Below are positions 3,557 to 26,697 of a stretch of 46,183 nucleotides of DNA, piece after piece. The first letter of the stretch is position 1, and every line of letters starts with the position of its first letter. The DNA is taken from contig JAFUPT010000019.1 in NCBI GenBank assembly GCA_017481065.1, forward strand, positions 1 through 46,183. The letters run 5' to 3'. The notes beneath the pieces were generated by a model. The model ran no database searches. It had not been told where the DNA came from and saw nothing but the letters and a program-made list of their open reading frames with translations. The translations under genes and the position numbers were made by a program. This DNA is from Clostridia bacterium (lineage in GTDB: Bacteria > Bacillota_A > Clostridia > Christensenellales > Aristaeellaceae).

Positions 3557-3585
3557 ATTATAGCACATCCGATACAATAAAACAA
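3557..3585 (-). promoter_or_regulatory. Promoter for the ZnuA-like gene and rnhA
   Basis: On the minus strand TTGTTT (3580-3585), a 17-base spacer and TATAAT (3557-3562), preceded by TGC (extended -10). It overlaps the base of the spoIID terminator. Confidence 0.8.
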
Positions 3586-3617
3586 TGCCGCAAACTCCGA
3601 AGAATCTGCGGCAATTG
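3579..3617 (-). terminator. Terminator of spoIID
   Basis: Stem of CAATGCCGCA (3583-3592) with TGCGGCAATTG (3607-3617), one bulged base, followed on the minus strand by TTTTATT. It starts immediately after the spoIID stop. Confidence 0.7.
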
Positions 3618-3618
3618 T

Positions 3619-4602: not shown

Positions 4603-4651
4603 ATCCAATCACCTCGTGCTTAGATTGAACCGAAATCCGGGAATTATGCGC

Positions 4652-6034
4652 TTATCTTTCGTTGAAAAGGCCCAGTTCGCCGATGGCCTGCGACACGGTT
4701 TCCACGCCGACAACCTGCATCCCCTCGGGAATTTTGAGGTTCCGGAGGTTCGATTTGGGCAGCAGAACATGGTCAAAGCCCAGGCGCATGCATTCCACGA
4801 TGCGCCGCTCCGCCTGGGGTACGGCGCGGATTTCGCCCGCAAGGCCGACCTCGCCCATCACCGCCCAGTTGCCTTCGGTGGGACGGTTCCGGAAGGAGGA
4901 GGCTACGGCTGCGCAGAGCGCGAGATCCGCGGCGGGCTCTGTGAGGGACATCCCGCCGGCGATATTGATGTATACATCCTTATCGTAGAGCCGCATTCCG
5001 GCGCGCTTTTCAAGCACGGCCAGCAGAAGCGCAAGCCTGCCCTGGTCCACGCCGCTCGCCATGCGCCGGGGATTTCCGAAGACAGTGGTGGAAACCAGCG
5101 CCTGCACATCGGTGAGCAGCGGCCGCGAGCCCTCGATGGCGCACATGATCACCGAACCGCTGGCATTGTGGGCGCGCTCAGAGAGCAGCGCCTCGCTGGC
5201 GTTCTGCACTTCCTTCATGCCCTCGCTGGTCATTTCAAACATGCCAAGCTCATTGACGGAGCCAATGCGGTTCTTCACCGCGCGCAGCAGGCGATACTGG
5301 TGCTGGCGGTCTCCCTCGAAATAGAGAACGGCGTCCACCATGTGCTCCAGCACCCGGGGTCCGGCCAGCGAGCCCTCCTTGGTGACATGGCCCACAAGGA
5401 ACACGCTGCAATTGCCCATCTTTGCAAGGCGCATCAGCCTGGAAGCGCACTCGCGCACCTGGGAAACGCTGCCGGGCGCGGAAGCCATCTCCGGCAGGTA
5501 CATGGTCTGGATGGAGTCCACCACAACGACGCCGGGCCGGAGTTCCTCCATGCGCCGTTCTACGGTATTTAAATCATTCTCGGAGAGCACATAGAAGCCG
5601 GACGCGCTGGCTTCCAGACGGTTTGCGCGCATCTTGATCTGCCGGGCGGATTCTTCGCCCGATACATAGAGCACAGATACGCCAGCCCGGGAAAGATTGG
5701 CGCAGACCTGCGTGAGCAGCGTGGATTTGCCGATGCCCGGATCGCCGCCCACCAGCACGAGGGAACCCTCCACAATGCCGCCTCCGAGCACGCGGTCCAG
5801 CTCGTCAATGCCGCTGGGACAGCGCTCGAGGGCATTATCGGGAATCTGGTCGATGCGCAGGGCCGCGGCGTCGCTGCCGGGCGCACGCTTGAGCTTCTTC
5901 TCGGATACGATGGCTTCCACCTTGGCCTGCTCGGTAAGGGTGTTCCAGTTGCCGCAGTCCGGGCATTTTCCCAGCCAGCGGGGCGTTTCATAGCCGCATT
6001 CGCTGCAGACGTATATCGATTTGGCCTTTGCCAC
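4652..6034 (-). CDS. radA: DNA repair protein RadA/Sms
   Basis: 460 residues, the usual RadA length. Order of parts: a zinc finger (Cys10, Cys13, Cys24, Cys27; CSECG...CPDCG), a RecA-like ATPase with Walker A GDPGIGKST (97-105) and Walker B VVVDSIQTM, the RadA-specific KNRIG motif (254-258; usually KNRFG), then a Lon-type domain. RadA is a hexameric DnaB-like helicase that promotes branch migration in homologous recombination. The GTG start at 6034 is chosen because GGAGG lies eight bases upstream; the frame extends further but lacks an RBS. The next gene downstream on the same strand is spoIID, 49 bases on. Confidence 0.96.
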   Translation of the reverse strand: MAKAKSIYVCSECGYETPRWLGKCPDCGNWNTLTEQAKVEAIVSEKKLKRAPGSDAAALRIDQIPDNALERCPSGIDELDRVLGGGIVEGSLVLVGGDPGIGKSTLLTQVCANLSRAGVSVLYVSGEESARQIKMRANRLEASASGFYVLSENDLNTVERRMEELRPGVVVVDSIQTMYLPEMASAPGSVSQVRECASRLMRLAKMGNCSVFLVGHVTKEGSLAGPRVLEHMVDAVLYFEGDRQHQYRLLRAVKNRIGSVNELGMFEMTSEGMKEVQNASEALLSERAHNASGSVIMCAIEGSRPLLTDVQALVSTTVFGNPRRMASGVDQGRLALLLAVLEKRAGMRLYDKDVYINIAGGMSLTEPAADLALCAAVASSFRNRPTEGNWAVMGEVGLAGEIRAVPQAERRIVECMRLGFDHVLLPKSNLRNLKIPEGMQVVGVETVSQAIGELGLFNER

Positions 6035-6065
6035 AATTTCTTCCTCCAATATTCCAATTGAATTC

Positions 6066-6074
6066 ATTATAACA
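6066..6074 (-). promoter_or_regulatory. Extended -10 promoter for radA
   Basis: TGTTATAAT on the minus strand (TGn plus a consensus TATAAT), 31 bases upstream of the radA GTG. The -35 is poor, as is common for extended -10 promoters. Confidence 0.65.
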
Positions 6075-6088
6075 CACCATCGCAAAAC

Positions 6089-6117
6089 TTGCCATATCAA
6101 AGAATTTCTTTTATAAT
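6089..6117 (+). promoter_or_regulatory. Sigma-A promoter for the phosphoesterase-like gene
   Basis: TTGCCA (6089-6094), a 17-base spacer, and TATAAT (6112-6117), divergent from the radA promoter. An AAGGAG ribosome binding site follows before ATG 6160. Confidence 0.8.
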
Positions 6118-6159
6118 AGAATTGAGTTTATATGAGTTCATTCTTTTAAGGAGATACAG

Positions 6160-7581
6160 ATGCAGGATTCCGAAAAGAAAGAGATCGGAACGATCGACGA
6201 CGAAATCATCCAGCCCGAACCCCGGCGCGGCAGACACGCCAAGGCCGAGGCAGAGCCCGCCCCCGCGCAGGAGGAAGCCATCCCCGAGGATGAGGAGCTT
6301 CTGGGCGACGAGGGCGATATTCCGCTGCGTAAAAAGAAGAAAAAGGCAGACTCCGCCAAGGATAAAAAGCGCAGGAAGCCGAAAAAGGATGGAAAAAAGA
6401 AGAAGCAGGGCAAGGTTCCTCCCCTGTTTTCCGAGAAGAAATTCCGTCGCAAGAAGAGCCTGTTTGAGATCATGAGCGCCTCCGGCGAGGATGGCTTCTT
6501 CAAGCCCATTTATATCTTCGGCCGCGAAATCCGCTTCTGGCCCCTGTTTTTGCTGGCCGCGCTGATTGTGCTGGTCGGTATGGTGGTGCTGAGCAACAGC
6601 AATGTGAGCGTGGTGAATGACCAGGTAACGGTTGTGGGCCTGCCCGATGACCTGGAAAATTACAATGTACTTGTAATTTCCGACCTGAACGGCAAGCGCT
6701 TCGGCGACGAACAGAGCTCCCTGCTGCGCACACTGGATGGCGTGGATTACGATATCATCCTCTGCGTGGGCGATATGGTGGGCGAAGATGGCGACGCGGA
6801 GCCCTTCTACGAATTCCTGGACGGCATCAGCGACCCGGAGGACGTTTACTTTATCTGCGGCGATTCTGATCCCGGCCCCTACCTCTCCTCCCCCCGGCAG
6901 ATCGAGGGAACGCTGGAGCAGATCGTGCTGGAGGACTGGATTCTCGGCGCGATTGAGCGCGGTGCAAACTATGTGGACGCGCCCATCAGCCTGGATGTTG
7001 GCGAGAGCCGCATCTGGCTGACCCCCACTTCCTACCTGAACCTGGATGCTGCGGCATACCAGGAGGAATGGAAGGACCAGATGCGCCAGGAGGAGGACGG
7101 CGTGATTTCCGGCGTGGCTTCGGATTACAACACCCTGCCCTTCACCAGCCACCGCTACGCACTGGCGCAGGAATTCTATGCCGCGGTAAAGGCCATGAAT
7201 TCCTCGGACTTCATCATCGGCATGTCCCACATCGTGCCCAGCGACGCCTATATTGAATCCGCAGCCACCCACGACGGCGATGCGAACTTCATGCCGGAGC
7301 CGGAGCTGATCGTTGCCGGCCATTACTGCGGCGGCGTATGGCAGCTGCCGGTGGCGGGCGCGGTATATGTGCCCAACCGCATGCTGCCGCGAAACGGCTG
7401 GTTCCCGGCGCAGGAGGATGTGAGCGGCCTTTCCAAGATCAGCGAAAGCCAGGTCTACATCAGCGGCGGCCTGCACACTACGGAGGCCATCCCGGTGCTT
7501 CCCTTCCGCCTGTTCAACGATCCGGAAGTCGGCCTGCTCACCTTCACAGCCAAGCTGCCGGAGAGCATGCTGGAATCCTGA
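6160..7581 (+). CDS. Membrane-anchored metallophosphoesterase-fold protein, degenerate active site
   Basis: 473 residues in three parts. Residues 1-100 are a charged cytoplasmic region with a Lys/Arg-rich stretch (57-83). Residues about 127-144 form one membrane helix. Residues 165-470 form an extracytoplasmic domain with the order of calcineurin-like phosphoesterase motifs. The ligands are eroded: DxH is DLN (175-177), GDxxD is GDMVG (204-208), GNH is GDS (234-236), His357 remains, and GHxH is GHYC (387-390). Ordinary two-metal hydrolysis is unlikely, so it may be a pseudoenzyme or use an altered metal site. It has its own promoter and terminator just before the germination operon. The true role is unknown. 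Confidence 0.7.
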   Translation: MQDSEKKEIGTIDDEIIQPEPRRGRHAKAEAEPAPAQEEAIPEDEELLGDEGDIPLRKKKKKADSAKDKKRRKPKKDGKKKKQGKVPPLFSEKKFRRKKSLFEIMSASGEDGFFKPIYIFGREIRFWPLFLLAALIVLVGMVVLSNSNVSVVNDQVTVVGLPDDLENYNVLVISDLNGKRFGDEQSSLLRTLDGVDYDIILCVGDMVGEDGDAEPFYEFLDGISDPEDVYFICGDSDPGPYLSSPRQIEGTLEQIVLEDWILGAIERGANYVDAPISLDVGESRIWLTPTSYLNLDAAAYQEEWKDQMRQEEDGVISGVASDYNTLPFTSHRYALAQEFYAAVKAMNSSDFIIGMSHIVPSDAYIESAATHDGDANFMPEPELIVAGHYCGGVWQLPVAGAVYVPNRMLPRNGWFPAQEDVSGLSKISESQVYISGGLHTTEAIPVLPFRLFNDPEVGLLTFTAKLPESMLES

Positions 7582-7602
7582 GCAATTTTATAAATACCTT
7601 TC

Positions 7603-7633
7603 GAAGTCCCTGCAAGCAGCAGGGACTTCTTTT
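7603..7633 (+). terminator. Terminator after the phosphoesterase-like gene
   Basis: Perfect 11-bp stem GAAGTCCCTGC (7603-7613) and GCAGGGACTTC (7619-7629) with a 5-base loop, followed by TTTT. Confidence 0.88.
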
Positions 7634-7662
7634 GCATAAATTCGCCATTTTCCGCCATACTG
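7633..7662 (+). promoter_or_regulatory. Probable sigma-G (forespore) promoter for the ger operon
   Basis: TGCATA (7633-7638), a 17-base spacer and CATACTG (7656-7662). The sigma-G consensus known from Bacillus is close to TGAATA, 17-18 bases, CATACTA. It lies directly after a terminator and about 20 bases before the AGGAGGTGA of the first germination gene, and no sigma-A hexamers fit this gap. Forespore expression of ger operons is established for Bacillus. Confidence 0.65.
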
Positions 7663-7688
7663 AAATGGAATTTCAGGAGGTGAAGCCC

Positions 7689-9200
7689 GTGCAGGAACAG
7701 CCGCATGCCGACCTTTTGCGCCGGAGTTTATCCGAAAATCTTGAGGAAAATATCTCCGTGCTCAAAACCATATTGAATGTTCCCCTCAACGAGGACCCCA
7801 TCTTCCGCAGCTTTGAAGCCAACGGACGCAAAATATGCGCTGTTTACATTGAAGGAATGGCTGATGCGCGCCTCATCAGCGAATTTGTGCTCCACGCCAT
7901 GGCGGACGCGCACGATCCACTGGATGGACTGGACGCCAAGAAATTCGGCGAGACGATGATCGAGGTCGCCCAGTGCAGGCGGGCCACGGAGATCAAGGAG
8001 ATCATTTCAAAGGTACTCGCCGGCATGGCCTGCATCCTGCTGGAGAATTCTGCCGAGGCGCTGATCCTGGAAACCCGCGGCTATGCCCATCGCAGCGTGG
8101 ATAAGCCGCTGGCTGAGACGGTAGTAGACGGCTCCCACGAGGGCTTCAACGAGCATTTGAGGACGAATATCACGCTGCTGCGGCGCTACTGCCAGAGTCC
8201 GGATCTGGTGACCCAGATGATGAGCGTCGGCACGAAGGTTCCCACGCAAGTGGCCATGGTCTACCTGAACGGCGTGGCGGATGAAAAGTGCGTCGCTGAG
8301 GTGAAAAAGCGGCTGATGTGCATAAAGGAAAAGGTGGTGCGCGGCACGGGCGGCATACAGCAGCTGATCGAGGACCATCCCTTTGCGCTGGTACCCCAGA
8401 TGCTGCAGACCGAGCGGCCGGACCGGGCGGCCTCCTGCCTGTGCGATGGGCAGGTTGCTATCTTAGTGGAAAACTCTCCCTATGCGCTGATCGCGCCCGT
8501 AACCTTCTTCCATCTGGTGCATTCCTCGGATGATTCCTTCCTGCGCTGGCAGTATGGCACGGCGCTGCGCATCATACGCCTGCTGGGGCTGCTCATCTCG
8601 CTGTTCCTGCCGGCCTTCTACATCGCCGTGACCATGTACCATACCCATCTCGTGCCGATGTCGCTGCTCAGCTCCATTGCCGAAGCGCGGGCAAATGTGC
8701 CCTTTCCGGTAATCATCGAGGTATTGTTCATGGAATTTTCCTTTTACCTGCTCAACGAGGCCGGGCTGCGCACGCCCAGCCAGATCGGATCGGCCTTCGG
8801 CATCGTGGGCGCGCTGGTCCTCGGGCAGGCGGCGGTTTCAGCCTCGATCATCAGCCCGATACTGATCATCATCATCGCGCTGACGGGCCTCGGGAACTAT
8901 GTGGTGCCGAACTATGGGCTCGGCATCGGCATTGTGCTCTACCGGCTGATGATGATCGCCTTCAGCGCGGCGCTGGGGCTCTACGGGCTGATGATCGGCG
9001 CATTTCTTCTTACGCTCCGGCTCTGTTCCCTCAAATCCTTCGGCGTGGATTACTTCGCACCCATCGCGCCCATGCGGAGGCACAACCCGGACATCCTGCT
9101 GCGCCTGCCTATATGGATGCAGCAAAAATCCATGTTTTACGCCTCGCCGACGAGCTGGATGCGGGACAGGGGCGGCAAAAAGGGAGGTAAGCAGAAATGA
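7689..9200 (+). CDS. GerA-family spore germinant receptor subunit A
   Basis: 503 residues of the GerA/SpoVAF family. The first ~270 residues are soluble (RSLSENLEENISVLKTIL through the conserved VAILVENSPYALIAPVTFF turn), followed by a membrane part with several helices (LLGLLISLFLPAFYIAVTMY, AVSASIISPILIIIIALTGLG and others). The A subunit sits in the spore inner membrane and, with B and C, senses small-molecule germinants. The GTG at 7689 is chosen as the start because AGGAGGTGA (7675-7683) is five bases before it; an ATG at 7665 lacks an RBS. It overlaps the B subunit gene by ATGA. Which germinant it senses cannot be read from sequence. Confidence 0.93.
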   Translation: MQEQPHADLLRRSLSENLEENISVLKTILNVPLNEDPIFRSFEANGRKICAVYIEGMADARLISEFVLHAMADAHDPLDGLDAKKFGETMIEVAQCRRATEIKEIISKVLAGMACILLENSAEALILETRGYAHRSVDKPLAETVVDGSHEGFNEHLRTNITLLRRYCQSPDLVTQMMSVGTKVPTQVAMVYLNGVADEKCVAEVKKRLMCIKEKVVRGTGGIQQLIEDHPFALVPQMLQTERPDRAASCLCDGQVAILVENSPYALIAPVTFFHLVHSSDDSFLRWQYGTALRIIRLLGLLISLFLPAFYIAVTMYHTHLVPMSLLSSIAEARANVPFPVIIEVLFMEFSFYLLNEAGLRTPSQIGSAFGIVGALVLGQAAVSASIISPILIIIIALTGLGNYVVPNYGLGIGIVLYRLMMIAFSAALGLYGLMIGAFLLTLRLCSLKSFGVDYFAPIAPMRRHNPDILLRLPIWMQQKSMFYASPTSWMRDRGGKKGGKQK

Positions 9201-10255
9201 ACCGCACTCCCGGGAAAAGCTCAACGGCGGCAATGCTCGCGCTGGCCGTCAGCATACGGCTGTTCTGGGGCATCGCCGCAGACCGGCCCTTTGTACCGAA
9301 CGCCAGCTGGATGTGTCCGCTTGCAGGGCTCATCATCTACCTGCCCTTCTGCTTTGCAGCAAGCCGCGCCGAACGCCTGGGCAACGACAGCGCATGGGGA
9401 AACCTCGCCAATGCCGGGCCGAAGTTCATCATCCATGCGGCGGAGCTCATCTTCGCGCTGCTGCTGCTCTACGACTGCGCCGCTTCCATGCGCCTGATGG
9501 CATACACGGCAAATGTACTGGCGCTGGGCGAGGTTTCAATCATACTGCTGCTCCTTCCCCTCGCCGCGCTTCTGGCTGCGGATGTGCTCATTGGCGCGGA
9601 TGCGATGGGAAGCAGCGCCCGGATCTGGCTCAGGTTCATGCCGATCCTGTTCCTGGTGGTGTTTATTGTGCAGGCGCAGGTCTACAACCCATCCTGGCTC
9701 ACGCCCCTGTTCGGCAGTGGCGCACAGGATATACTGGACGGCGGGCTCTATTCCGCGGGCTGCCTGGCCCTGCTTACCATTCCATGGCTATTTTCCCTGC
9801 CGGACAGGAACAAAAGGCCGCTGATCCTTTATATCGGCCTTTCCGTGCTCGCCGCCGCGATCCTGCTTGCGGCCAGCCAGATGCTCACGCCGCCCATCAT
9901 TGCCGCAGAGCTCTCCCGCATGAGCCGGATCAAGCTGGTCCTGAGCAACGGCAGGTCCGCTCTGTCCCTTCAGATGCTCATGATCGTGCTCTGGTACGGC
10001 GCGCTGCTGCATCTAACAGGCACGGAAGCCGTGTCCGCCGCCTGCTGCATAAAGCGCATCGTTCCGAAGGCGCCGCAGTGGACGCTGGCGCTGGGCGTGG
10101 CTGTGCTCACCACCATCGCCGCTTCCTCCGGTCTGACTTCCGAGGAAGCGGGCCGCATGCTGTATCCGTGGCTGTTCGCTGTGCTGGGCGGCACGATGAT
10201 CACCGTCATGCTCTCCTGCCTGTTGAAGAGAGGAGGAAAGGTATGCGAAAGCTGA
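9197..10255 (+). CDS. GerB-family endospore germination permease
   Basis: 352 residues, almost entirely hydrophobic, with about ten predicted membrane segments. It matches the GerB/spore permease family of the amino acid-polyamine transporter superfamily, and it is the subunit where germinant binding is thought to occur in GerA-type receptors. It starts at ATG 9197, overlapping the A subunit stop by four bases (ATGA), with GGAGG at 9183-9187 upstream. It overlaps the C subunit gene by 13 bases. This A-B-C order with tight coupling is typical of complete germinant receptor operons. Confidence 0.92.
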   Translation: MNRTPGKSSTAAMLALAVSIRLFWGIAADRPFVPNASWMCPLAGLIIYLPFCFAASRAERLGNDSAWGNLANAGPKFIIHAAELIFALLLLYDCAASMRLMAYTANVLALGEVSIILLLLPLAALLAADVLIGADAMGSSARIWLRFMPILFLVVFIVQAQVYNPSWLTPLFGSGAQDILDGGLYSAGCLALLTIPWLFSLPDRNKRPLILYIGLSVLAAAILLAASQMLTPPIIAAELSRMSRIKLVLSNGRSALSLQMLMIVLWYGALLHLTGTEAVSAACCIKRIVPKAPQWTLALGVAVLTTIAASSGLTSEEAGRMLYPWLFAVLGGTMITVMLSCLLKRGGKVCES

Positions 10256-11394
10256 TTGCCTTTTTCCTGGCTGCGGCGCTTCCCATGCTGCTGGGCGGAT
10301 GCGCGGAATCCCGGCAGGCAGAAAACCAGGCCTATGTGATTGCCATGGGGCTGGACCGGACGGAAGAGGGCGGGATTGAAATCAGCGCCCAGATTCCCAA
10401 GATTTCCGGCTCGCAGAATTCTGAATCCGGCGGCGGATCGAAGTCTTCCGGGAATTACCTGCCCATCAGCGCAGCGGCGGCGGACTATGTAACTGCGCTG
10501 GAGCGGCTGAACTGGTCCGTACCCCGGGAACTGAACCTATCCCAGATCAAGATCATTATTATCTCCCGTGCGCTCGCCAGTGAAGCAGATTTCGGGGAAC
10601 TTATGCAGGAACTTGTCAACACGGAGCAGCTCTTTGCCGCAGCAGACGTGGTGGTTTGCGAGGGCAGCGCAAAGGAATTCGTGAATGCGCTCTCCCCGAC
10701 GCTGGGAACCCGGCTCTCGGCGGACATTGAATCCACCATCGAGCACTACCAGTCGCTGGGCGTCATGCCGGACTGCAGCCTCGCAAACCTGAATTACTAC
10801 ACCCAATCCGTCTATTCCGATCCACTGGCAGGCTACGCCATACTCTCCGGGGAAGGGGCTGAAACGTCCAAGGCTCAACCCGCTTCCGCGCTGGGCGGCT
10901 CTCCCCAGGAAATCATGCAGTCCGCCGAATCGGAAATCACGACGCGCTACCTCGGCGCAGCTGTTTTTGCAAACGGCAGCTTCCGCGGCGTGCTCAACGG
11001 CGACCAGGCCATCCTGACCAACCTGATCAACAATTCGCTGGACAGCTTCCGCTATGTTTTTGACGGCGATACGCTGGAGCTTTCCCCGATGGGGCAATGC
11101 CGTATCAGCGTGGATACCAAGGAAAACCCGGCAAGGATTGCCATATCCCTGAACCTGTCCATCAGCGGCCAGAACAAAACACCGGATGTGAATAAGCTCC
11201 GGGAGGCGCTGAAAGGCGATATGATGGAGGCGATTTCCCTCGCCCGGGATATGGGGGCCGATCCATTTGGCTTTGCAGAGGCCGCAGCGCGGGATTTTCT
11301 CACCCTGCAGGAATGGCTGGATTACGATTGGCGCAGCCGCTTTCAGGATGCCGAGATCGAAATAAAGCTGCGTTTCTCCCATGCAGGCGCTTGA
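10243..11394 (+). CDS. GerC-family germination lipoprotein
   Basis: 383 residues. The signal peptide ends at lipobox LGGC (Cys20). The family N-terminal pattern follows (NQAYVIAMGLDRTEEGGIEISAQIP), then a C-terminal GerAC domain (ITTRYLGAAVFANGSFRGVLNGDQAILTNLI). GerC is a lipid-anchored subunit of the germinant receptor. AGGAGG (10231-10236) six bases before ATG 10243 fixes the start; the frame is open far upstream, inside the permease gene, but that is a shadow. Its TGA overlaps the -35 box of the next promoter, so the receptor operon ends here without a recognisable terminator. Confidence 0.92.
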   Translation: MRKLIAFFLAAALPMLLGGCAESRQAENQAYVIAMGLDRTEEGGIEISAQIPKISGSQNSESGGGSKSSGNYLPISAAAADYVTALERLNWSVPRELNLSQIKIIIISRALASEADFGELMQELVNTEQLFAAADVVVCEGSAKEFVNALSPTLGTRLSADIESTIEHYQSLGVMPDCSLANLNYYTQSVYSDPLAGYAILSGEGAETSKAQPASALGGSPQEIMQSAESEITTRYLGAAVFANGSFRGVLNGDQAILTNLINNSLDSFRYVFDGDTLELSPMGQCRISVDTKENPARIAISLNLSISGQNKTPDVNKLREALKGDMMEAISLARDMGADPFGFAEAAARDFLTLQEWLDYDWRSRFQDAEIEIKLRFSHAGA

Positions 11395-11419
11395 CAAAAT
11401 CATGCCTATTTCTTACAAT
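11391..11419 (+). promoter_or_regulatory. Sigma-A promoter for the lipid kinase gene
   Basis: Consensus TTGACA (11391-11396), a 17-base spacer, TACAAT (11414-11419). The -35 overlaps the stop codon of the GerC gene. Confidence 0.85.
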
Positions 11420-11470
11420 TAATATAGGATAAGTGTGATACAAAAGAAATTACGAAAGAATTGATGAACG

Positions 11471-12346
11471 ATGTATATCATGATCCTGAATCCCAACTCC
11501 GGCAGAGGGATTGCGCTGAAAAAGCTGCCTGAAATCGAAGCGATTCTCCATCAGCAAGGCATCGAATATCGAATTGAGAAGGACCACGATGAATCCCAGA
11601 CCAGCGAGGTCGTGCGCCGCGCAGTTGCCGAAAAACCCGAGGGCATCATCGTGCTCGGCGGCGATGGCACCCTATTCCGGGTGGCAAACGGCATGGTTGG
11701 AAGCGATGTGCCGCTGATCTTCGTATCCTGCGGCACGGGAAACGACTTCGTCCGCGCGCTGAACCTGCCGAAGGACCCCATCGAGGCATTGAAGCTGCAA
11801 TTGAGCTCCCCGGTGCGGCGCATCGACACGGGCCGAATGAACGAAACCTGCTTCTTGAACGTATCCGGCACGGGCTTTGATGTGGATGTGCTGCGCTTGG
11901 TGGACAAGTACAAGGAGAAGCATTCCGGCTTAAAGGCCTATCTCCTGGCCCTTGCAGCGGCGCTAAAGGCATACAAGCCCATGACTGCCATGATTTCCGT
12001 GGACGGCGAGCCGGAGCAGGAAATCTCCTTCGCCATCCTCTCCATCGGCAACGGCCGCTATTTCGGCGGCGGCATGAAGGCCGTGCCCACAGCTGTTGTA
12101 AATGATGGGCTTTTTGATCTTGTAATCGTGCGGCCGGTAAAGAAAGCCATGATTCCCTTCCTGCTGGTTTTCTATATTGCAGGTAAGCATGTCGACCTGA
12201 AATTCGGCACACTGCGCCGCTGTAAATCGGTCACGGTGCGCCGCAAGGCTTCCACCTTCAACCTGGATGGCGAGCTCATGGATACGGATTCGGCAAGATA
12301 CCAGATTCTTCCCGGCGCGATCACAGTAAGGGTGCCGGGATTATAA
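11471..12346 (+). CDS. Diacylglycerol/lipid kinase family protein (DgkB/YegS type)
   Basis: 291 residues, typical for this family. The N-terminal half holds the nucleotide-binding GGDGTLFRV (GGDGT at 63-67) and a CGTGNDFVRAL loop; the C-terminal beta domain includes SIGNGRYFGGGM and ends in an FNLDGE segment. Members phosphorylate diacylglycerol or related lipids at the membrane surface, feeding phosphatidate back into lipid synthesis after lipoteichoic acid turnover; the substrate here is inferred. It has its own promoter and a strong terminator, so it is monocistronic. Confidence 0.9.
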   Translation: MYIMILNPNSGRGIALKKLPEIEAILHQQGIEYRIEKDHDESQTSEVVRRAVAEKPEGIIVLGGDGTLFRVANGMVGSDVPLIFVSCGTGNDFVRALNLPKDPIEALKLQLSSPVRRIDTGRMNETCFLNVSGTGFDVDVLRLVDKYKEKHSGLKAYLLALAAALKAYKPMTAMISVDGEPEQEISFAILSIGNGRYFGGGMKAVPTAVVNDGLFDLVIVRPVKKAMIPFLLVFYIAGKHVDLKFGTLRRCKSVTVRRKASTFNLDGELMDTDSARYQILPGAITVRVPGL

Positions 12347-12387
12347 GAAAAAGAACTCCGAAGCGTTTGCTTCGGAGTTCTTTTTCT
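12346..12387. terminator. Bidirectional terminator between the lipid kinase and zinc-ribbon genes
   Basis: A perfect 19-bp stem: 12346-12364 pairs with 12369-12387 around a 4-base loop, with A-rich and T-rich flanks giving a U tract on either strand. The genes are convergent. Confidence 0.92.
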
Positions 12388-12390
12388 GAA

Positions 12391-12798
12391 TCAGGCCTTC
12401 TGCTTGAACTGGTGGCGGCACTTGCCGCAGGTGACGGTAACCTCCCCCACCTTCCTCGGCAGGCGCAGCCTGGCCTTGCATTCCGGGCAGCGGAAATATT
12501 TGAACTGCTTGGAATTCTTCATGCGGGCGAAGAACTGGGAGATGTTGGTCTTGTAGTTGCGGCGGAAGTTCATATATTTTTCGTTCTCCGCACGGCGCTT
12601 TGCCACATTGCGGGAGAACATGCGGAACAGCGCGTACACATACAGCGCAAGGCCGAGATAATGAATGATTACGAGATTGGTGATGCTGGCCAGCACGACC
12701 AGTACGAGGCCGCCGAGAATCAGCGCCATGCCCAGCTGGTCGCTGCCGTTGCGTCCGGCCATGAAATTGCGCATGCCTGCCTTAATTTTCTGCCACAT
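12391..12798 (-). CDS. Membrane protein with C-terminal zinc ribbon
   Basis: 135 residues. Two hydrophobic helices (about 22-39 and 43-60) form a hairpin; a basic linker leads to a zinc ribbon with Cys104, Cys107, Cys124 and Cys127 (CPEC...CGKC). The ribbon should face the cytoplasm if the basic linker obeys the positive-inside rule. ATG at 12798 follows GGAAAGGGG; the frame upstream lacks a start signal. It is the last gene of the dnaK-DUF5685-dnaJ-like group, 41 bases after the J-domain gene, and a terminator follows. A role in recruiting the J-protein or DnaK to the membrane is only a guess from position. Confidence 0.7.
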   Translation of the reverse strand: MWQKIKAGMRNFMAGRNGSDQLGMALILGGLVLVVLASITNLVIIHYLGLALYVYALFRMFSRNVAKRRAENEKYMNFRRNYKTNISQFFARMKNSKQFKYFRCPECKARLRLPRKVGEVTVTCGKCRHQFKQKA

Positions 12799-12839
12799 TG
12801 AAATATTTTCCCCTTTCCAGAGTTCCGACCGACCGGCGA

Positions 12840-13553
12840 TCAGAACATGCGATAGTAACCATGCCCGCCGCAGCAGCTGCCTGAACAGCAGTTGCACAGC
12901 AGGGACATCAGGCAGCACATCCCCAGCGGATTGCGGCAGACGAACTGCTGCGCATTGAAGGGACTGCCCGTTTGCTGATAATTTGCATTTCTTCCCTCGA
13001 GGCGGGCAAGCAGGGAGCGGTATTCAAAGTTATCCGGCTCCATGCTCACAGCCTGGCGGGCATAATTGAGCGCCGCGACCCGGTTGCCGAGGCCCAGGTT
13101 GGCTTCGCCGCTCAGGTAATACCATTCCGCGCTGCGCTCGGATATGTTCTGCAGCACGTTCATGGCCTCGCTGTAATGGCCGGAGCGCACATAATTGCGC
13201 GCGGCAGTGAGCAGCGGATCATTGCTCTGGCTGCGGCTCTGGCCGCCGTAGCTGCTGTAACCGCCGTAGCTTCCATAGCCACCAAAGCCGCCGTAGCCCT
13301 GGCCATAACCCTGGCCGTAGCCGGAATTTCCGTAGCCGCCGCCATAGCTATTCTGGCTGCCGGAGGCGCCTTCGCGCTTCATCTTCATAACCTGCGAATA
13401 TGCCTCATTGACCTCCTTCATGCGAGCCTCGGCCTCAGGAGAGCCGTTGTTCACATCCGGATGGTATTTCTTGGCCAGGTTTCTGTATGCCTTTTTGATT
13501 TCGTCCTCAGAGGCGCCCTGCGATACGCCAAGCACGCGATAGGGATCCTGCAT
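12840..13553 (-). CDS. J-domain protein with Gly/Tyr-rich linker, TPR-like repeats and Cys-rich tail
   Basis: 237 residues. An N-terminal J domain (1-65) has the HPD motif at 31-33, needed to stimulate Hsp70 ATPase. Residues 68-105 are a low-complexity Gly/Tyr/Ser/Gln run. Residues about 113-186 look like two TPR helix pairs ([53 protein letters not shown]). The tail (206-231) has eight cysteines, some in CC pairs. It lacks the zinc-finger and substrate domains of housekeeping DnaJ, so it is a class III J-protein. Its ATG overlaps the DUF5685 stop by one base (TAATG), and dnaK heads the group, suggesting a dedicated pair. Confidence 0.9.
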
Positions 13554-14404
13554 TATTGTGCTCCTTTAACTTTGGCCTGTTTTTCGGCCTTTTTGGTTTG
13601 AATGTAGCCGTATTTTGCCCAAACACCGGAATAAAGTATGTTCCGGATGAGCTGTGCATCCTGGATGACGGGCAATTCCTCAAATGCCGCCGCGCAGTCC
13701 GCGAGGGCCATGGTCATGGCGTCCTTGCAGATTTCCTCATAATCCGACTGGCCCATGATGGATTTGAGGGGATTGTATTTCTTCCGCTTTACATCCTTTT
13801 CCAGGTCGTCGTAGGCGTCCATGAAGTAGATGAAGCGGCCGAGGCCATCGCCCATGCGAAAGAGGGCTTCGGAAAAGAAATCATCCCGATACTGAAACAG
13901 CGTGCCCAGCATGCGCCCGGTGAGATTCATCGGCGGATCGATTTCCTCCCTGCCGCTCTTTTCAATCTCCCCCACGCCGCGCATCCATTCCTCAATCGCC
14001 CGGCATTTTTCAGGATGCAGCGCGCATGCCTTCCTGTATGCGCCTTTAAGTGCCTGCTTTGCCGCGGCGTACACGGGGTTTTTATCATCCTGCCAATTAT
14101 CCGCGCATTTGTGGTAGGCCAGGGCAATATTCATATCCACCGCGTATTCCATGATGGAATTGAGCACATAATCGTGGGGTTTGAGCATGTGGGGCATGCA
14201 CCGCTCGCTGCCGGATAGCTCCTGTGGCTCATAAAGCCCGGAGAGCACCATGGCAACGAAGGTCATATCGTAGCTCAGGGTGAAGCGACCAAGGTTGCCA
14301 TAGCGCCGCTTCAGCGTATGGCACATGCCGCAATACATCGCCCGGAAGCGGGCGCGCTCAGCGTCGCTCAGCGTCTTGCAATTGGTGATCACATAGCCGA
14401 ACAC
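13553..14404 (-). CDS. DUF5685 family protein
   Basis: 283 residues matching the clostridial DUF5685 family, which begins with FGYV and a [13 protein letters not shown] motif (C-x2-C) and has a [12 protein letters not shown] segment. The body is mostly helical; later motifs include [29 protein letters not shown], whose DAYDDLEKD is reminiscent of the acidic motifs of all-alpha prenyl-transfer enzymes, though I do not claim that activity. The start is GTG 14404, because GGGGAGG lies eight bases upstream and the protein then begins at the family N terminus. It sits between dnaK and the J-protein gene. Function unknown. Confidence 0.8.
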
Positions 14405-14482
14405 GCTCTGCACCTCCCCGGACGGCAAATACTTCCTACATTATAAACCAGCAATGTTAAGGGCGTTCTATATCGGGCGGGT

Positions 14483-16270
14483 TCAGTGCTGATCGCCGTC
14501 CGTAGGCTCGTAGGTCGCATCGTAAACGCCGTCCTCACTGCTGGCGGTGGCGTCCGTATTCCACACAGACTGGCCCGCGGCGCCGAGGGCGCGCTCAAGG
14601 TCCATGCAGGAATTGCGCACAGCATTGGGATCCTTGCTCTTGAGGGCCTTCTTTGCCTCCTTCACCAGCTCGGTCATGCGCTGCTTATCTTCCTTGCTGA
14701 GCTTCTTCATCACGGATTCAGCCTGGTAGATCAGGTTATCCACCCGGTTCTGCATCTCCGCCTCCTCCTTGCGCTTGGCATCCTCCGCAGCGTAGATCTC
14801 AGCATCCCGGATCGCGCGGTTGATTTCCTCGCGGCTCATATTGGAAGAAGAGGTGATGGTGATGTTCTGCTGGCGGCCGGTGCCAAGGTCCTTTGCAGAA
14901 ACATTTACGATGCCGTTTGCATCAATGGCAAAGGTGACTTCGATCTGCGGCACGCCGCGCATGGCGCGGCGGATACCATCCAAGCGGAACTTGCCGAGCT
15001 CCTTGTTCTGGGAAGCGATGGGGCGCTCGCCCTGGAGCACATGCACGTCAACAGCAGTCTGGAAGCTGGCAGCAGTGGTGAAAATCTGGCTGCGCTGGAT
15101 CGGAATGGTGGAGTTGCGCTCGATGATCTTGGCGTATACATCGCCCACGGTCTCGATACCGAGGGACAGCGGAGTCACATCCAGAAGGAGCAGGCTCTTC
15201 ACATCGCCGCCCATTACGCCGGCCTGCAGCGCCGCGCCCATGGCCACGCATTCATCCGGGTTGATGCCCTTGAAGGGCTCCTTGCCGGTGAAGCGCTTAA
15301 CGGCTTCCTGCACGGCGGGGATGCGGCTCGATCCGCCCACCAGCAGCACTTTAGAGAGGTCCTTCGGGCTGAGGCTGGAATCAGCCATCGCCTGCTGCAC
15401 CGGACCCATGGTCATATCCACCAGATGGCGGGTCAGTTCATCAAATTTTGCCCGGGTGAGCACAGTTTCCATGTGCAGCGGGCCATTTTTATTGGCGGTA
15501 AGGAAGGGCAGGTTGATATTCGCCATCGTGATGCCGGAGAGCTCGATCTTTGCCTTCTCAGCAGCTTCCTTCACGCGCTGCATGGCGGTGGAATCCTTGC
15601 GGAGGTCGATCTTGTACTCCCGCTTGAATTCATCCACAAGGTAATCCGTGATGCATTTATCGAAATCATCGCCGCCGAGGCGGTTGTTGCCGGCGGTGGC
15701 CAGCACTTCGATGACGTCGGAATTGATATCGAGTATGGATACATCGAAGGTACCGCCGCCGAGATCGTACACCATGATCTTCTGGGGCTCTTCCTTATCC
15801 ACGCCGTAGGCCAGCGCAGCCGCAGTGGGCTCGTTTATGATGCGCTTCACATTCAGGCCCGCGATCATGCCCGCATCCTTGGTGGCCTGGCGCTGGGAAT
15901 CGGTAAAATAGGCTGGGACGGTGATCACCGCTTCGGAGATGGTTTCGCCGGTATATGCCTCGGCATCTGCCTTGAGCTTTTGCAGGATCATCGCGGAGAT
16001 TTCCTGGGGCGTATACTTTTTTCCATCAATATTTATGCGGTAATCCGATCCCATCTCGCGCTTGATGGAGCTTACTGTGCGCTCGCTGTTGGTAACGGCC
16101 TGGCGCTTTGCCACCTGGCCTACGAGGCGCTCGTTGTTTTTTGAAAAGGCTACGATGGAGGGAGTGGTTCTGCCACCCTCCGAATTGGGGATCACAACTG
16201 CCTCGCCGCCTTCAATTACGGCGACGCAGGAATTCGTAGTACCCAGATCGATGCCGATCACCTTGGACAT
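14483..16270 (-). CDS. dnaK: Hsp70 chaperone DnaK
   Basis: 595 residues. The nucleotide-binding domain has phosphate loop [54 protein letters not shown] and [12 protein letters not shown]; the substrate domain follows ([17 protein letters not shown]) and the lid is helical. It refolds proteins using ATP, helped by J-proteins and GrpE. The start is ATG 16270, seven bases after GGAGG. The lid is slightly shorter than usual and the C terminus is [15 protein letters not shown] without the common acidic EEV-type ending. No hrcA, grpE or classical dnaJ is adjacent and no CIRCE element is visible upstream, so it could be a second DnaK. Confidence 0.93.
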
Positions 16271-16422
16271 GTGCATTCCTCCGATTTTCAGGATATGCTG
16301 GTATTTTACCCCTGTTTTATCAACTGAATGTGAATTTGGGCAGGCAGAAGGCAAATTTGCGCCAAGACAAGCAATAATATCTGTAATATTTGCTTAATAA
16401 CAAACCGACCGCTGTATTTTAA

Positions 16423-16454
16423 AGACCGAAGTCTATTATTCAAGACTTTAGTCT
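16423..16454 (-). terminator. Second (distal) terminator of the glycyl-radical operon
   Basis: AGACCGAAGTCT (16423-16434) and AGACTTTAGTCT (16443-16454) pair over 12 positions with one mismatch and one wobble; on the minus strand TTTAAAAT follows. Confidence 0.55.
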
Positions 16455-16478
16455 GTGGATTTCTTGCTATTCTTTTGC

Positions 16479-16516
16479 AAAAAAACAATGCCTGACAAAA
16501 TATGTCAGACATTGTT
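16479..16516 (-). terminator. First terminator of the glycyl-radical operon
   Basis: AACAATGCCTGACA (16484-16497) pairs with TGTCAGACATTGTT (16503-16516); on the minus strand a run of seven T follows. It lies seven bases after the DUF1653 stop. Confidence 0.9.
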
Positions 16517-16522
16517 TATGTG

Positions 16523-16762
16523 CTATTCCCCACCATGCATGCGCAGGTATTCTTCCTCCGGCAGAAAGCGGGTGTAGGTTTTGCCATCCCGCTCCAGCGT
16601 TTCCGACCACATACTCAGCGGCCGGACCCAGAGCCCTCCTTCCCCGTAGAGCGCCCGGTAAACCACCATGGGCTCCAGGGTTTCGGAGTGCCTGGCTATA
16701 TCAATAAGTTCGTAGCGCATGCCCTTGAAATGACGGTAAATTCCCTTCTTCGGCAGTTCCAC
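16523..16762 (-). CDS. DUF1653 family protein
   Basis: 79 residues matching the DUF1653 pattern: GIYRHFKGMRYELIDIARHSET near the start, VVYRALYGEGGLWVRPLSMW in the middle, and FLPEEEYLRM near the end. No function is established for the family. The start is GTG 16762, because GAGG overlapping the upstream stop lies six bases before it; earlier in-frame codons are inside the glycyl-radical enzyme gene. The 8-base gap to that gene implies co-translation. Terminators follow directly. Whether it takes part in the radical enzyme pathway or is merely carried along is unknown. Confidence 0.83.
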   Translation of the reverse strand: MELPKKGIYRHFKGMRYELIDIARHSETLEPMVVYRALYGEGGLWVRPLSMWSETLERDGKTYTRFLPEEEYLRMHGGE

Positions 16763-16770
16763 GGCGCGCC

Positions 16771-18711
16771 TCAGATGGAATAGGAGGTGCGCTCGATAAT
16801 CTGGTCCTGGTAGCCCTTGTCCAGCTGGACAAAGTGACCGCTCCAGCCCCACACACGCACGATCAGGTTCTGGTGCTCCTCGGGATGCTTCTGGGCATCC
16901 AGCAGGGTATCACGGCTGACGGCGTTGAGCTGCAGCTGGTGGCCGCCGAGCATGATGTAAGTGCGAACGAGCTGGGCAACCTTGCGAATGCCCTCTTCAT
17001 TCTTGAACACGGTATCATGGAGCTCGAGGGTCATCGGGCCGCCGTTGCAGACGAGGTTCAGGGTCGGGCGCGCCATGGCCTGCAGCACAGAGAGCGGGCC
17101 CGCATCGGAGAGCAGCAGGGAAGGCGAGAAGTTGGCCGCCAGCATTTCGCCGGCTCCTCGGCCATCGGCGGTGGCGCCCATGCCGCGGGCATGCCAGAGA
17201 TAATACATCGCGGTGCCGGTGCCGGTGCGGAAGATGCCGCCGCGTTCGTTGGTGCGGTTCTGCCAGGCTGCATGGAAGTAGGTGATCAGGGTGTCGAGCA
17301 GTTCGGCGCAGACATCGTCCCGACCGAGCTTGGGAGCCTTTTCGCGCAGCTTGTGCTTGAGGGCGATGTTTCCAGCGAAATCATTCTCCATCGCATCGAG
17401 CAGTTCATCCTTGGAGACGGACTGATCGCCGTACACAAATGCCTTGACTGCGGCCAGCTGGTCGACGGCGGTGGCAAAGCCGGTGCCATGAATGCCGTAA
17501 TTGTTGTACTTTGCGCCCTCGGAAATATCGCGGCTGTAATCGCTCATCAGCACGGACTGGTAGGGTGCGGGCTCCATGAAGAGGTTCTTAAAGCCGGGTT
17601 CCAGCTTATCCGCCTCTGCAATTTCAGCAAGGCGCACCTTTTCGAGGAGAACCTCAAAGGATTCGCAGTTTTTGAGCTCCGCAAGGATGACATTTCGAAC
17701 CAACTCGGCATGAGAAACCGCGCCGATATTCGGGATATCCAGCGCCACGCCGGGGATGATGAATTCCCAGCAGGCGGCGACGGTGTAGTTCCGGGCGTCC
17801 TTGAGGTCATAACCCATTTCCACCAGCGCCGGGATGACCACATCATCGTTGGCGTACTGCGGGAAGCCCAATCCCTGCTTGGTGAGCTGGGTGCAGAGCT
17901 CGTAGAGCTCGAGGGGCGTATCCTTGTTGACGCGCAGGTTGATCTTCGGGTCGATGCGGCGGTTGTGCAGGCTGGCCTTGAGGCAAATGTAAGTGAGCTC
18001 ATTGACCGCGCAGGAGCCATCCTCCTTGCAGCCGCCGAGCATCAGGCTCTGGCCGTTGTCGCCCTGCTGCATGCCGATATAGAGATCGCTGTCGCGGTTG
18101 AAGGAGAGGAAGAATTCCTCGGTGAGTTCGAGGGCGGATTCCGCCGTGAGCTTGCCGGACTCGATATCCTTCTTGTAGTAAGGATACATATACTGATCGT
18201 AGCGGCCCACAGTGTTGTGGTACACATTGGAAGCCCACATGCAGAAGTGCAGGATGCGGAACATCTTCATGGCGCCGAGGTAGCCATCCGCGCCGTAGCG
18301 CACGGCATCGGAGAGGCCGGCGTCTTCATAGCGGTCGGCATAGGCGATCACCGCGTCGACAGTCGCCTGCATATCCTTATTTCCAGCTTCGCGGCGGGCG
18401 AGCAGGCCGGATTTGATCACGCCCTCCCAATCGTTGGAGATATTGCAGATGCGGCCCTGCTCATGCACATAGCGGCCCTCGGTGAGCTTTTCCTTCTCTC
18501 CCCCGGCATAGATATCCGGGAAGGAGATGATGGTGCGCCAGGCGGGAATATTCTCGCCCGGGTTTTTGATGATCTGCTCCTCTTCCAGGAAGAGCTTCAG
18601 GCGCAGCGCGGCGCGCTCGGACAGGGTGAGCGCAGGATTCTGAATCTGCGCGCTGATGGCGTCCCAGCGTTCCTTGCTCAATTCCCGGCGAATTGCCTTG
18701 ATATTGCTCAT
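16771..18711 (-). CDS. Glycyl-radical enzyme of the Cys-x-Glu (eliminase/decarboxylase) type, substrate unknown
   Basis: 646 residues, shorter than most pyruvate formate-lyases or diol dehydratases (about 750-900), mainly through a reduced N-terminal region. The glycyl loop near the C terminus reads RVWGWSGHF, radical site Gly622. The thiyl site reads AACWEFIIPG: Cys314, Glu316. Pyruvate formate-lyase has two adjacent cysteines and no such Glu; Cys-x-Glu is known from choline lyase, diol and hydroxyproline dehydratases, isethionate lyase and arylacetate decarboxylases. SLMLGGCKEDGSCAVNELTYICLKA is a family block. AGGAGG precedes ATG 18711. The activase gene is 39 bases upstream. A C-O, C-N, C-S or C-C cleaving enzyme is inferred; the substrate is unknown. 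Confidence 0.88.
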   Translation of the reverse strand: MSNIKAIRRELSKERWDAISAQIQNPALTLSERAALRLKLFLEEEQIIKNPGENIPAWRTIISFPDIYAGGEKEKLTEGRYVHEQGRICNISNDWEGVIKSGLLARREAGNKDMQATVDAVIAYADRYEDAGLSDAVRYGADGYLGAMKMFRILHFCMWASNVYHNTVGRYDQYMYPYYKKDIESGKLTAESALELTEEFFLSFNRDSDLYIGMQQGDNGQSLMLGGCKEDGSCAVNELTYICLKASLHNRRIDPKINLRVNKDTPLELYELCTQLTKQGLGFPQYANDDVVIPALVEMGYDLKDARNYTVAACWEFIIPGVALDIPNIGAVSHAELVRNVILAELKNCESFEVLLEKVRLAEIAEADKLEPGFKNLFMEPAPYQSVLMSDYSRDISEGAKYNNYGIHGTGFATAVDQLAAVKAFVYGDQSVSKDELLDAMENDFAGNIALKHKLREKAPKLGRDDVCAELLDTLITYFHAAWQNRTNERGGIFRTGTGTAMYYLWHARGMGATADGRGAGEMLAANFSPSLLLSDAGPLSVLQAMARPTLNLVCNGGPMTLELHDTVFKNEEGIRKVAQLVRTYIMLGGHQLQLNAVSRDTLLDAQKHPEEHQNLIVRVWGWSGHFVQLDKGYQDQIIERTSYSI

Positions 18712-18750
18712 ATATTTTCCTCCTGATTCATACCTATATATGTATACTCC

Positions 18751-19617
18751 TTACAATATTTCTACCCGGATGCCGCGGCGTTCAAACGGCTCGCGGATAA
18801 CCTGCGGCTCCTGCTGCTCGGGAAAATCCACGCAGTACTCCATGTCGAGGCCGCTGTATTTTGCCCCAGCCGCCTTGTTGTAGCGCATGAGCTCCACCTT
18901 TTCCAGCATTTGCGCGCCTTCGAGGAGGGCGGCGGTGGCTTCCATGTTTTCCGGGGTATCGTTCACCGTAGGAATGAGGGGCACACGGATGCGGAAGGGT
19001 TTGTTCATGCCCTTCAGGATTTCCAGGTTGCGCAGGATGGGCGCGTTGTCCACGCCTGTATAGCGCTTGTGGAGCGCAGAATCGGCGATTTTCACATCCA
19101 TGATCACCATGTCCATGGCCTCGCAGAGCTTCGTGAACGTTTCCGCACCGGCAAAGTCGCTGGTTTCAATGAGGGCGTGCACCTCGGGAATGAGCCTGCG
19201 CACAGCGATGATGAATTCGCTCTGGAGCATGACCTCGCCGCCGGAGAAGGTGACTCCCCCGCCGTTCATTTCGAGTATCTTTGCTTGCCTGCGGATTTTA
19301 TCCGCCACTTCCTTGGCAGTCATGCGGGTTCCGGCGATGCGGATGCAGCCCTTCGGGCACACATCCACGCATTTCCCGCAGCCGATGCACTTCCGGGGCG
19401 ACGGGCAGACCGCCTTGCAGGCGCCGCAGTGCTCGCAGAGGGACTGGGTGACCACGCGCTGGGGATGCACCGCCAAGCCTTCCGGATTATGGCACCACAT
19501 GCAGCGCAGCGGACAGCCCTTCATAAATACCGCGCAGCGGATTCCGGGACCGTCAAATACGGCAAATTCCTCGATGTCAAATACGAGTCCTGTGACTTCT
19601 TCCAAATTCATATTCAT
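18751..19617 (-). CDS. Glycyl-radical enzyme activating protein (radical SAM)
   Basis: 288 residues. The radical-SAM cluster motif is CPLRCMWC (Cys35, Cys39, Cys42). An inserted bis-[4Fe-4S] ferredoxin domain has Cys61, 64, 67, 71 and Cys77, 80, 83, 87. This architecture belongs to activases of non-PFL glycyl-radical enzymes; PflA itself lacks the ferredoxin insert. GGGVTFSGGEVMLQ is the SAM-binding GGE block. It makes a 5'-deoxyadenosyl radical that abstracts H from Gly622 of its partner. There is no Shine-Dalgarno sequence; a consensus promoter places the start point at the A of ATG 19617, so the mRNA is probably leaderless. An in-frame ATG at 19611 is the alternative. Confidence 0.93.
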   Translation of the reverse strand: MNMNLEEVTGLVFDIEEFAVFDGPGIRCAVFMKGCPLRCMWCHNPEGLAVHPQRVVTQSLCEHCGACKAVCPSPRKCIGCGKCVDVCPKGCIRIAGTRMTAKEVADKIRRQAKILEMNGGGVTFSGGEVMLQSEFIIAVRRLIPEVHALIETSDFAGAETFTKLCEAMDMVIMDVKIADSALHKRYTGVDNAPILRNLEILKGMNKPFRIRVPLIPTVNDTPENMEATAALLEGAQMLEKVELMRYNKAAGAKYSGLDMEYCVDFPEQQEPQVIREPFERRGIRVEIL

Positions 19618-26165: not shown

Positions 26166-26209
26166 ATAAAACAAACCGAAGTCTTCTTTCAGACTTCGGT
26201 TTGTTTTAT
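26166..26209. terminator. Bidirectional terminator between the AAA+ ATPase gene and nrdG
   Basis: A perfect 19-bp stem: 26166-26184 pairs with 26191-26209 around a 6-base loop, with A/T-rich bases giving U tracts both ways. The core ACCGAAGTCT/AGACTTCGGT recurs elsewhere. The nrdG stop codon lies inside the right arm. Confidence 0.93.
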
Positions 26210-26697
26210 GATATTTCGATTGCAGCGCCCGCTTTCAGGGACTTTTTTACATCGATCAGCCGCTGGTTGGAGGAGCCGCGGAAGCGGCATTCCAGTGTTT
26301 TCTTTTCCAGAATGAAGCGGCCATCGACAAGCACATCGATTTCCCGGAGCAATTCCATCCACTCGCTCTTTCCCGCGACGAGTTCCTCAAAGGTATAGCC
26401 TGTGTAGCACCACACATTGAGTCCGGCAGCACGAGCGCCCCGGGCAATCTCCGCGCAGGCTCCGCTCTGGCAGAAGGGTTCACCGCCGCTGAGTGTTATA
26501 CCGTCCAGAAGGGGATTTTCCCGCATCTGATCGAGGATTTTTGCCGTCTCCTCTTCCCTGCCCCCGGAAAAATCGTGGGTCTGGGGGTTGTGGCAGCCGG
26601 GACAGTGGTGCGGGCAGCCCTGGGTGAATATGGTCAGACGAAATCCCGGGCCATCCACGATGGAATCATTCACGATTCCGGCAATGCGGATCTTCAT
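26206..26697 (-). CDS. nrdG: Anaerobic ribonucleotide reductase activating protein
   Basis: 163 residues, the usual NrdG size. The radical-SAM motif CPHHCPGCHNPQTHDF, GITLSGGEPFCQ and WCYTGYTFEEL are family hallmarks. It generates the glycyl radical on NrdD so that ribonucleotides can be reduced without oxygen. nrdD is not in the window; instead nrdG is the last gene of an operon with an RpiR regulator and an HI0933 flavoprotein. ATG 26697 overlaps the flavoprotein stop by ATGA, with GGAGG upstream. Confidence 0.93.
   Translation of the reverse strand: MKIRIAGIVNDSIVDGPGFRLTIFTQGCPHHCPGCHNPQTHDFSGGREEETAKILDQMRENPLLDGITLSGGEPFCQSGACAEIARGARAAGLNVWCYTGYTFEELVAGKSEWMELLREIDVLVDGRFILEKKTLECRFRGSSNQRLIDVKKSLKAGAAIEIS

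Follow-up and report, generated by a model that had tools for sequence, protein, structure and literature searches.

The gene pair and its family

The stretch of DNA analysed, hereafter the window, comprises positions 1 to 46,183 of contig JAFUPT010000019.1 (assembly GCA_017481065.1), from a member of the Aristaeellaceae (Clostridia, Christensenellales), in which a 646-residue putative glycyl-radical enzyme (GRE) is encoded beside its cognate radical S-adenosylmethionine (radical-SAM) activase (Table 1). The Pfam domains PFL-like and Gly_radical both scored above cut-off in the larger protein and, together with its predicted thiyl Cys and radical Gly, assign it to the GRE superfamily; a fold search likewise placed the predicted structure of the whole protein in the GRE fold. 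A motif scan of the activase returned one CX3CX2C and two CX2CX2CX3C motifs, the arrangement of a GRE-activating enzyme with a ferredoxin insert, and many GRE activases have been described as carrying a ferredoxin-like domain with eight Cys (PMC6181972).

Table 1. Positions of the features discussed, in the window and at the loci of relatives.
Sequence	Feature	Position	Strand	Basis
Window	GRE gene, 646 aa, ACWE...RVWGWS family	16771..18711	-	Open reading frame; Pfam PFL-like and Gly_radical; family clade
Window	Catalytic Cys314-Trp315-Glu316 codons (within AACWEF)	17764..17772	-	Sequence; same in 44/44 family rows
Window	Glycyl-radical loop RVWGWSGHF, residues 619-627, Gly622	16831..16857	-	Sequence; Gly_radical domain
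Window	Asn90 codon	18442..18444	-	Profile alignment to 1r8w, opposite glycerol dehydratase His164
Window	Asn328 codon	17728..17730	-	Profile alignment to 1r8w, opposite glycerol dehydratase Asp447
Window	Cognate radical-SAM activase, 288 aa	18751..19617	-	TIGR02494 over cut-off
Window	Activase radical-SAM motif CPLRCMWC (Cys35, 39, 42)	19492..19515	-	Motif scan
Window	Activase ferredoxin insert, eight Cys, residues 61-87	19357..19437	-	Motif scan; Pfam Fer4
Window	DUF1653 protein	16523-16852	-
Window	NrdG-type anaerobic ribonucleotide reductase activase	26206-26697	-	TIGR02491, 157 bits against cut-off 126.1
L044	Sugar isomerase and kinase genes adjoining family GRE	3015-6035
L058	Sugar isomerase and kinase genes adjoining family GRE	13051-16324
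L099	Protein of the 617-627-aa pair adjoining family GRE	6262-8115		No Pfam match
L100	Protein of the 617-627-aa pair adjoining family GRE	2976-4859		No NCBIfam match
L161 (G395:C69)	Activase and five tandem GREs	3034-15729
L101 (G372:C13)	Same-strand run with two GREs	8050-18956

Of 7998 candidates scored in a homology search, 7668 proteins matched at E <= 0.001; the 120 relatives listed measured 635-675 aa, with identities of 64-91%. A family member was present in 19 of 297 genomes of the order and 20 of 391 genomes of the class that include locus L001, whose own genome enters both counts, and the family is widespread in Clostridia. In a quick tree of 116 rows, drawn with midpoint rooting and SH-aLRT support only, 40 labelled rows and one member row lacking its C terminus formed a single clade (branch support 100, length 1.0), separate from HypD, CutC, HPAD, PFL, PflD and YbiW; six rows below 600 aa, 18 loci with duplicate PFL-type rows and 6 near-duplicate loci had been set aside. 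Identity between the family and 75 non-family GRE rows reached at most 34.6%, and against the remaining 43 family rows the window GRE showed 42-86%. Judged by its sequences, the family is a new subfamily within a known enzyme family. No description of an ACWE/RVWGWS family appeared among the literature matches listed, in a search that left most subscription papers outside; many abundant gut GREs have functions not yet known, according to PMC11574389.

Comparison with characterised glycyl-radical enzymes

The window GRE fell below the cut-off of every subfamily model compared: 286.7 against 678.2 bits for the PFL2-3 model, 267.7 against 1100 for HypD (NF043068, the second best NCBIfam score), 249 against 1109 for PRK09983, 221.7 and 216.4 against 1000 for the sulfopropanediol dehydratases of HpsG/HpfG types (NF048011 and NF048009), 201.8 against 1050 for CutC (TIGR04394), 168.6 against 1100 for IAD (NF033718), 163.3 against 1150 for HPAD (NF033715) and 52.6 against 994.2 for PFL (TIGR01255). 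In a common alignment its identity was 28.7% to PflD, 28.4% to HypD, 25.0% to YbiW, 24.3% to CutC, 24.1% to HPAD and 21.2% to PFL, and 31.0% to the best glycerol/propanediol-type row, a row typed by its active-site motif only. IslA, HplG, BSS and phenylacetate decarboxylase lie outside the tree; the family profile, the sole comparison made for the first three, scored 251.7 bits on IslA, 277.1 on HplG and 167.9 on TutD/BSS. The same profile scored highest on glycerol dehydratase (394.0 bits), PflD (376.2) and propanediol dehydratase (370.9), and 102.4 bits on the PFL structure 1h16. PflD was also the best single-sequence PDB match of the window GRE (227.8 bits) and the first Foldseek match, with propanediol dehydratase near the top among the matches listed. 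By these measures, the window GRE lies outside every known GRE type compared, and the Cys-x-Glu motif together with the closest similarity to eliminases supports assignment to the eliminase class.

An earlier note, made from the window's letters, had described a 646-residue GRE with Cys314, Glu316 and Gly622 and an activase with a two-cluster insert, and the pair is as described. It had also argued that the enzyme is not pyruvate formate-lyase (PFL), which agrees with the low TIGR01255 score, with Ala313 at the position where PFL has the first of its two adjacent Cys, and with a separate true PFL, above the TIGR01255 cut-off, in 10 of 19 member genomes. Its expectation of mislabelling was borne out, as the source names of the listed relatives, where given, include "pyruvate formate-lyase", "pyruvate formate lyase family protein" and "formate C-acetyltransferase"; GREs named in this way by similarity keep the family hidden in annotation. 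Grouping with a characterised subfamily, which that note had named as evidence against novelty, was not seen for any of the characterised subfamilies compared, the six types in the tree among them.

Signature residues and predicted pocket

Ala313, Cys314, Trp315 and Glu316 were identical in 44/44 family rows, as were Asp254, Lys256, Asn258, Arg260, Asn328, Asn404 and His408, and Arg619, Trp621, Gly622 and Trp623 were kept in all 43 family rows reaching the glycyl-radical loop. Eight of these residues (Ala313, Trp315, Asp254, Lys256, Asn328, His408, Trp621 and Trp623) occurred in none of 20 reference rows, comprising 4 HypD, 2 CutC, 1 PflD, 1 YbiW, 5 glycerol/propanediol-type (motif-typed), 3 HPAD and 4 PFL sequences, so that the predicted pocket would differ from those of the reference types. 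Arg495 is family-invariant and non-diagnostic, being found in 3 of the 4 HypD rows as well. The column of Asn90 held Asn in 40 of the 44 family rows, His in one and a gap in three; in 47 close relatives Asn90, His165, Lys256, Asn328 and His408 were all invariant. In the profile alignment to 1r8w, Asn90 and Asn328 stand opposite His164 and Asp447 of glycerol dehydratase, two residues that we take to contact the glycerol substrate. Residue 165 aligned with either His281 or Ser282 of that enzyme, depending on the alignment, and nothing was concluded from it. The aromatic and charged residues particular to the family (Trp315, Trp621, Trp623, Asp254, Lys256 and His408) would be well matched to a ligand that is polar and has a ring.

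The earlier note had counted the Trp that follows the catalytic Cys among features fitting no subfamily it knew. By itself this Trp is not unique, since a separate GRE group (L040, L042, L166 and L177) combines GCWE with RVSGW[NS]ARF as a second Cys-Trp-Glu type; ACWE with RVWGWS plus about ten invariant residues is diagnostic. The signature of ACWE, RVWGWS, Asn90, Lys256, Asn328 and His408 allows family members to be recognised. Two points were absent from that account, namely the spread of the family in Clostridia and a neighbourhood that points to carbohydrate breakdown.

Gene neighbourhoods

Genes were called with a codon-usage script around 44 family loci, namely the window, L001 and a further 18 in the order and 24 in the class. 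At 41 of these an activase on the GRE's strand lay no more than 400 bp away; none was present in the stretch covered at L052, L060 and L099, of which L060 is cut by a contig end. Recurrent neighbours were an AraC-type cluster (12/44 loci), a LacI-type cluster (8/44) and a GH36-like "Raffinose synthase" cluster (c4, 7/44). Glycoside hydrolases made up 16 of 50 hand-picked neighbours scanned singly: Melibiase (L046), GH28 (L047), GH2 and GH43 (L048), Raffinose_syn (L051), GH35 (L055), GH95 (L059), GH4 (L088), GH2 (L089), GH123 (L090), a trehalase-type enzyme (L092), GH127 (L098, L102 and L109), GH5 (L105) and GH43 (L107). At least 20 of the 44 loci hold a glycoside hydrolase, a count that includes L053, L093, L094, L097 and L101, assigned only through similarity to the GH36-like c4.

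A matched comparison was made between the five nearest genes beside the GRE-activase pair at 19 loci (95 proteins) and a control set of 91 genes taken from 19 other stretches of those contigs, a further control stretch, L181, being left out; the best 25 of 89 and 25 of 124 families were listed, with single-member families mostly unseen. HTH_18 (AraC-type) occurred in 16/95 neighbours against at most 1/91 control genes. GH78-type, Raffinose_syn, GH43 and GH2 each had two members among the 95 neighbours, and no glycoside hydrolase family had two members among the 91 control genes.

In the window itself, an acetate/propionate kinase gene (ackA; TIGR00016, 318.9 bits against cut-off 293.4) lies upstream of the pair and divergent from it, followed by glgC and glgD (both read by eye) and the starch synthase gene glgA, and dnaK (read by eye) lies beyond the GRE. 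Gene order is the same at L001, which holds an 86% identical relative and on whose genome the genome-level checks for the window's lineage were made. Acetate kinase was rejected as a functional partner because its cluster is limited to these two of the 44 loci. The DUF1653 gene comes immediately downstream of the GRE gene, whose end is overlapped by the long DUF1653 frame; translation of the DUF1653 protein therefore probably starts at a later position within that frame. Elsewhere in the window, an aminoacetone-oxidase-family flavoprotein adjoins the NrdG-type activase.

Within the subclade of the window GRE, a LacI regulator stands beside the pair at L043 and L044; at L044 it is accompanied by an FGGY-cluster kinase and a protein distantly related to sugar isomerases (84.8 bits against a cut-off of 700 in the sulfoquinovose isomerase model). 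Sugar isomerase and kinase genes adjoin the family GRE at L044 and L058, the latter with a class II aldolase read by eye. Candidates for a substrate-defining sugar module were an FGGY kinase, present at 3 loci, a pair of isomerases at L044 and L058, UxaC at L059 and single aldolases at L058, L101 and L108; none recurs often enough to define a substrate. Concrete substrate candidates can be drawn from the sugar genes linked to the family at L044, L058, L101, L059 and L102. Proteins of 617-627 aa adjoin the family GRE in two genomes, at L099 and L100.

Proposed function and alternative explanations

The window protein is very probably an activatable GRE of the eliminase type: Cys-x-Glu is kept, the PFL Cys pair is absent and the family profile scores best on eliminases. 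Its substrate is probably carbohydrate-derived, given the glycoside hydrolases and the AraC and LacI regulators near relatives, and is likely to be new to GREs. Combining both points, we favour with moderate confidence an enzyme of the glycyl-radical eliminase class that works as a dehydratase or C-O lyase, has a dedicated activase and takes a substrate derived from carbohydrate. The radical-SAM activase, identified by sequence, would abstract a hydrogen from Gly622 as in the known family, and Gly622 would then take one from Cys314 to give a thiyl radical. Cys314 would in turn remove hydrogen from a hydroxyl-bearing substrate carbon, with Glu316 as the base, and the neighbouring OH or O-linked group would leave, yielding a deoxy-carbonyl product. 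Relatives' neighbourhoods suggest that glycoside hydrolases release the substrate, which could be a sugar, a polyol or another carbohydrate fragment with several hydroxyl groups and may exceed glycerol and propanediol in size or polarity.

Several observations weigh against a carbohydrate eliminase. The window copy and L001 have ackA, glgC/D/A and dnaK for neighbours and lack an adjacent glycoside hydrolase, so that the sugar link of the window copy rests on its relatives; 24 of the 44 loci have no identified glycoside hydrolase among the part of their neighbours scanned, and the 50 neighbours scanned singly were chosen by hand. ABC sugar-type permeases were not enriched (3/95 neighbours against 5/91 controls), xylose-isomerase-like proteins stood at 3/95 against 2/91, and no sugar kinase, isomerase or aldolase recurred widely across the 44 loci, the FGGY kinase cluster being present in 3. 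The pocket residues, moreover, come from alignment rather than from coordinates.

A B12-independent glycerol/1,2-propanediol dehydratase, acting on a small diol from the breakdown of sugars such as rhamnose or fucose, would account for glycerol dehydratase being the best profile match, for the high fold rank of propanediol dehydratase and for two alpha-L-rhamnosidase-type genes among the 95 neighbours. The glycerol dehydratase of Clostridium butyricum (1r8w) and the 1,2-propanediol dehydratase of Roseburia (5i2g) share the GRE fold, Cys-x-Glu and a ferredoxin-insert activase with the family, but the family is about 140 residues shorter, has Asn where His164 and Asp447 would touch the diol, and carries Trp315, Lys256, His408, Trp621 and Trp623, which those enzymes lack. 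With identity to the motif-typed rows of at most 31% and no microcompartment or aldehyde-dehydrogenase gene recognised in the part of the neighbours scanned, we regard this explanation as unlikely. A lyase of the PflD/YbiW kind for anhydro-sugars or sugar phosphates, which would open a ring ether in an anhydrohexitol phosphate, would match the rank of PflD in sequence and fold searches, the invariance of Lys256 and Arg495, and PDB titles that pair PflD and YbiW with anhydro-hexitol phosphates; YbiW and PflD are reported to cleave 1,5-AG6P and 1,5-AM6P (PMC12441222). The resemblance would be that of GRE eliminases acting on a sugar-like polyol, as proposed for the family, yet identity is only 25-29%, the clades are separate, the neighbours differ and no PTS gene was recognised among those scanned. 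PflD and YbiW group instead with other rows, among them three further GREs of the L001 genome (L008, L009 and L010; one with YbiW, two with PflD), so that enzymes nearer to PflD and YbiW are already encoded there, and we consider this reading improbable too. The L001 lineage may also use anhydro-hexitols.

Two further possibilities are far less probable. An arylacetate-type decarboxylase, which we would rate as very unlikely, draws on Cys-x-Glu being common to decarboxylases, a Glu beside the thiyl Cys being described for HPAD and IAD (PMC6181972); against it stand the HPAD and IAD model scores, profile scores below those of eliminases and a neighbourhood that is not aromatic. An acyl lyase resembling PFL, with its product passed to the neighbouring acetate kinase, would fit the divergent kinase gene in the window and L001 and the lack of a PFL above cut-off in the L001 genome, but Ala-Cys in place of Cys-Cys, the TIGR01255 score, the restriction of the kinase cluster to two of 44 loci and the true PFL of 10 of 19 member genomes leave it barely credible. 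HypD, a Cys-x-Glu eliminase as well, is set apart by its identity and model score.

As a more speculative extension of the carbohydrate-eliminase reading, the family may represent a new class of radical carbohydrate eliminase in glycan-degradation loci of uncultured Clostridia, working beside ordinary glycoside hydrolases and belonging to an extensive radiation of short, uncharacterised GREs with up to 14-15 GRE matches in a genome; it would dehydrate a sugar or derivative or cleave an ether or glycosidic C-O bond, a proposal that we put forward tentatively. If action on carbohydrates is true, anaerobic glycan breakdown has radical C-O cleavage besides hydrolysis. To our knowledge, the YbiW/PflD pathway is the only comparable radical cleavage of carbohydrate C-O bonds. 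The present analysis supplies one GRE family with a signature and places it in context; its contribution is of that kind and not a demonstration of new chemistry.

Other glycyl-radical enzymes

Further groups of short GREs in Clostridia, with GCWE, GCQE, GCYE and other motifs, resemble the family in length and in Cys-x-Glu and share with it one side of the tree, which holds 77 rows at support 95, but they form separate supported clades and none combines ACWE with RVWGWS; no characterised member was found among these groups as far as searched. Among 37 genomes picked for holding a family member, glycyl-radical domain matches, some of them PFL or short GrcA-like frames, numbered 15 in G395 (2.0 Mb), 14 in G339 and G348, 11 in G609 and 10 in G472.

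The same-strand run at L101 contains two different GREs, each with its own activase, together with gluconolactonase-like and xylulokinase-like (TIGR01312 over cut-off) genes and, read by eye, a Zn alcohol dehydrogenase, a GH43-like protein and a deoxyribose-phosphate aldolase. The FGGY-gluconolactonase set was rejected as partner of the family GRE and assigned to the second GRE because its homologues adjoin a relative of that enzyme in G373; judged by the genes of the run, the second GRE may take part in a radical route that converts a pentitol into a 2-deoxy-pentose. At L161, one activase is followed by five tandem same-strand GREs of 768-783 aa, all with GCQE instead of GCVE; a citrate-type transporter precedes the array and the next gene has no domain match.

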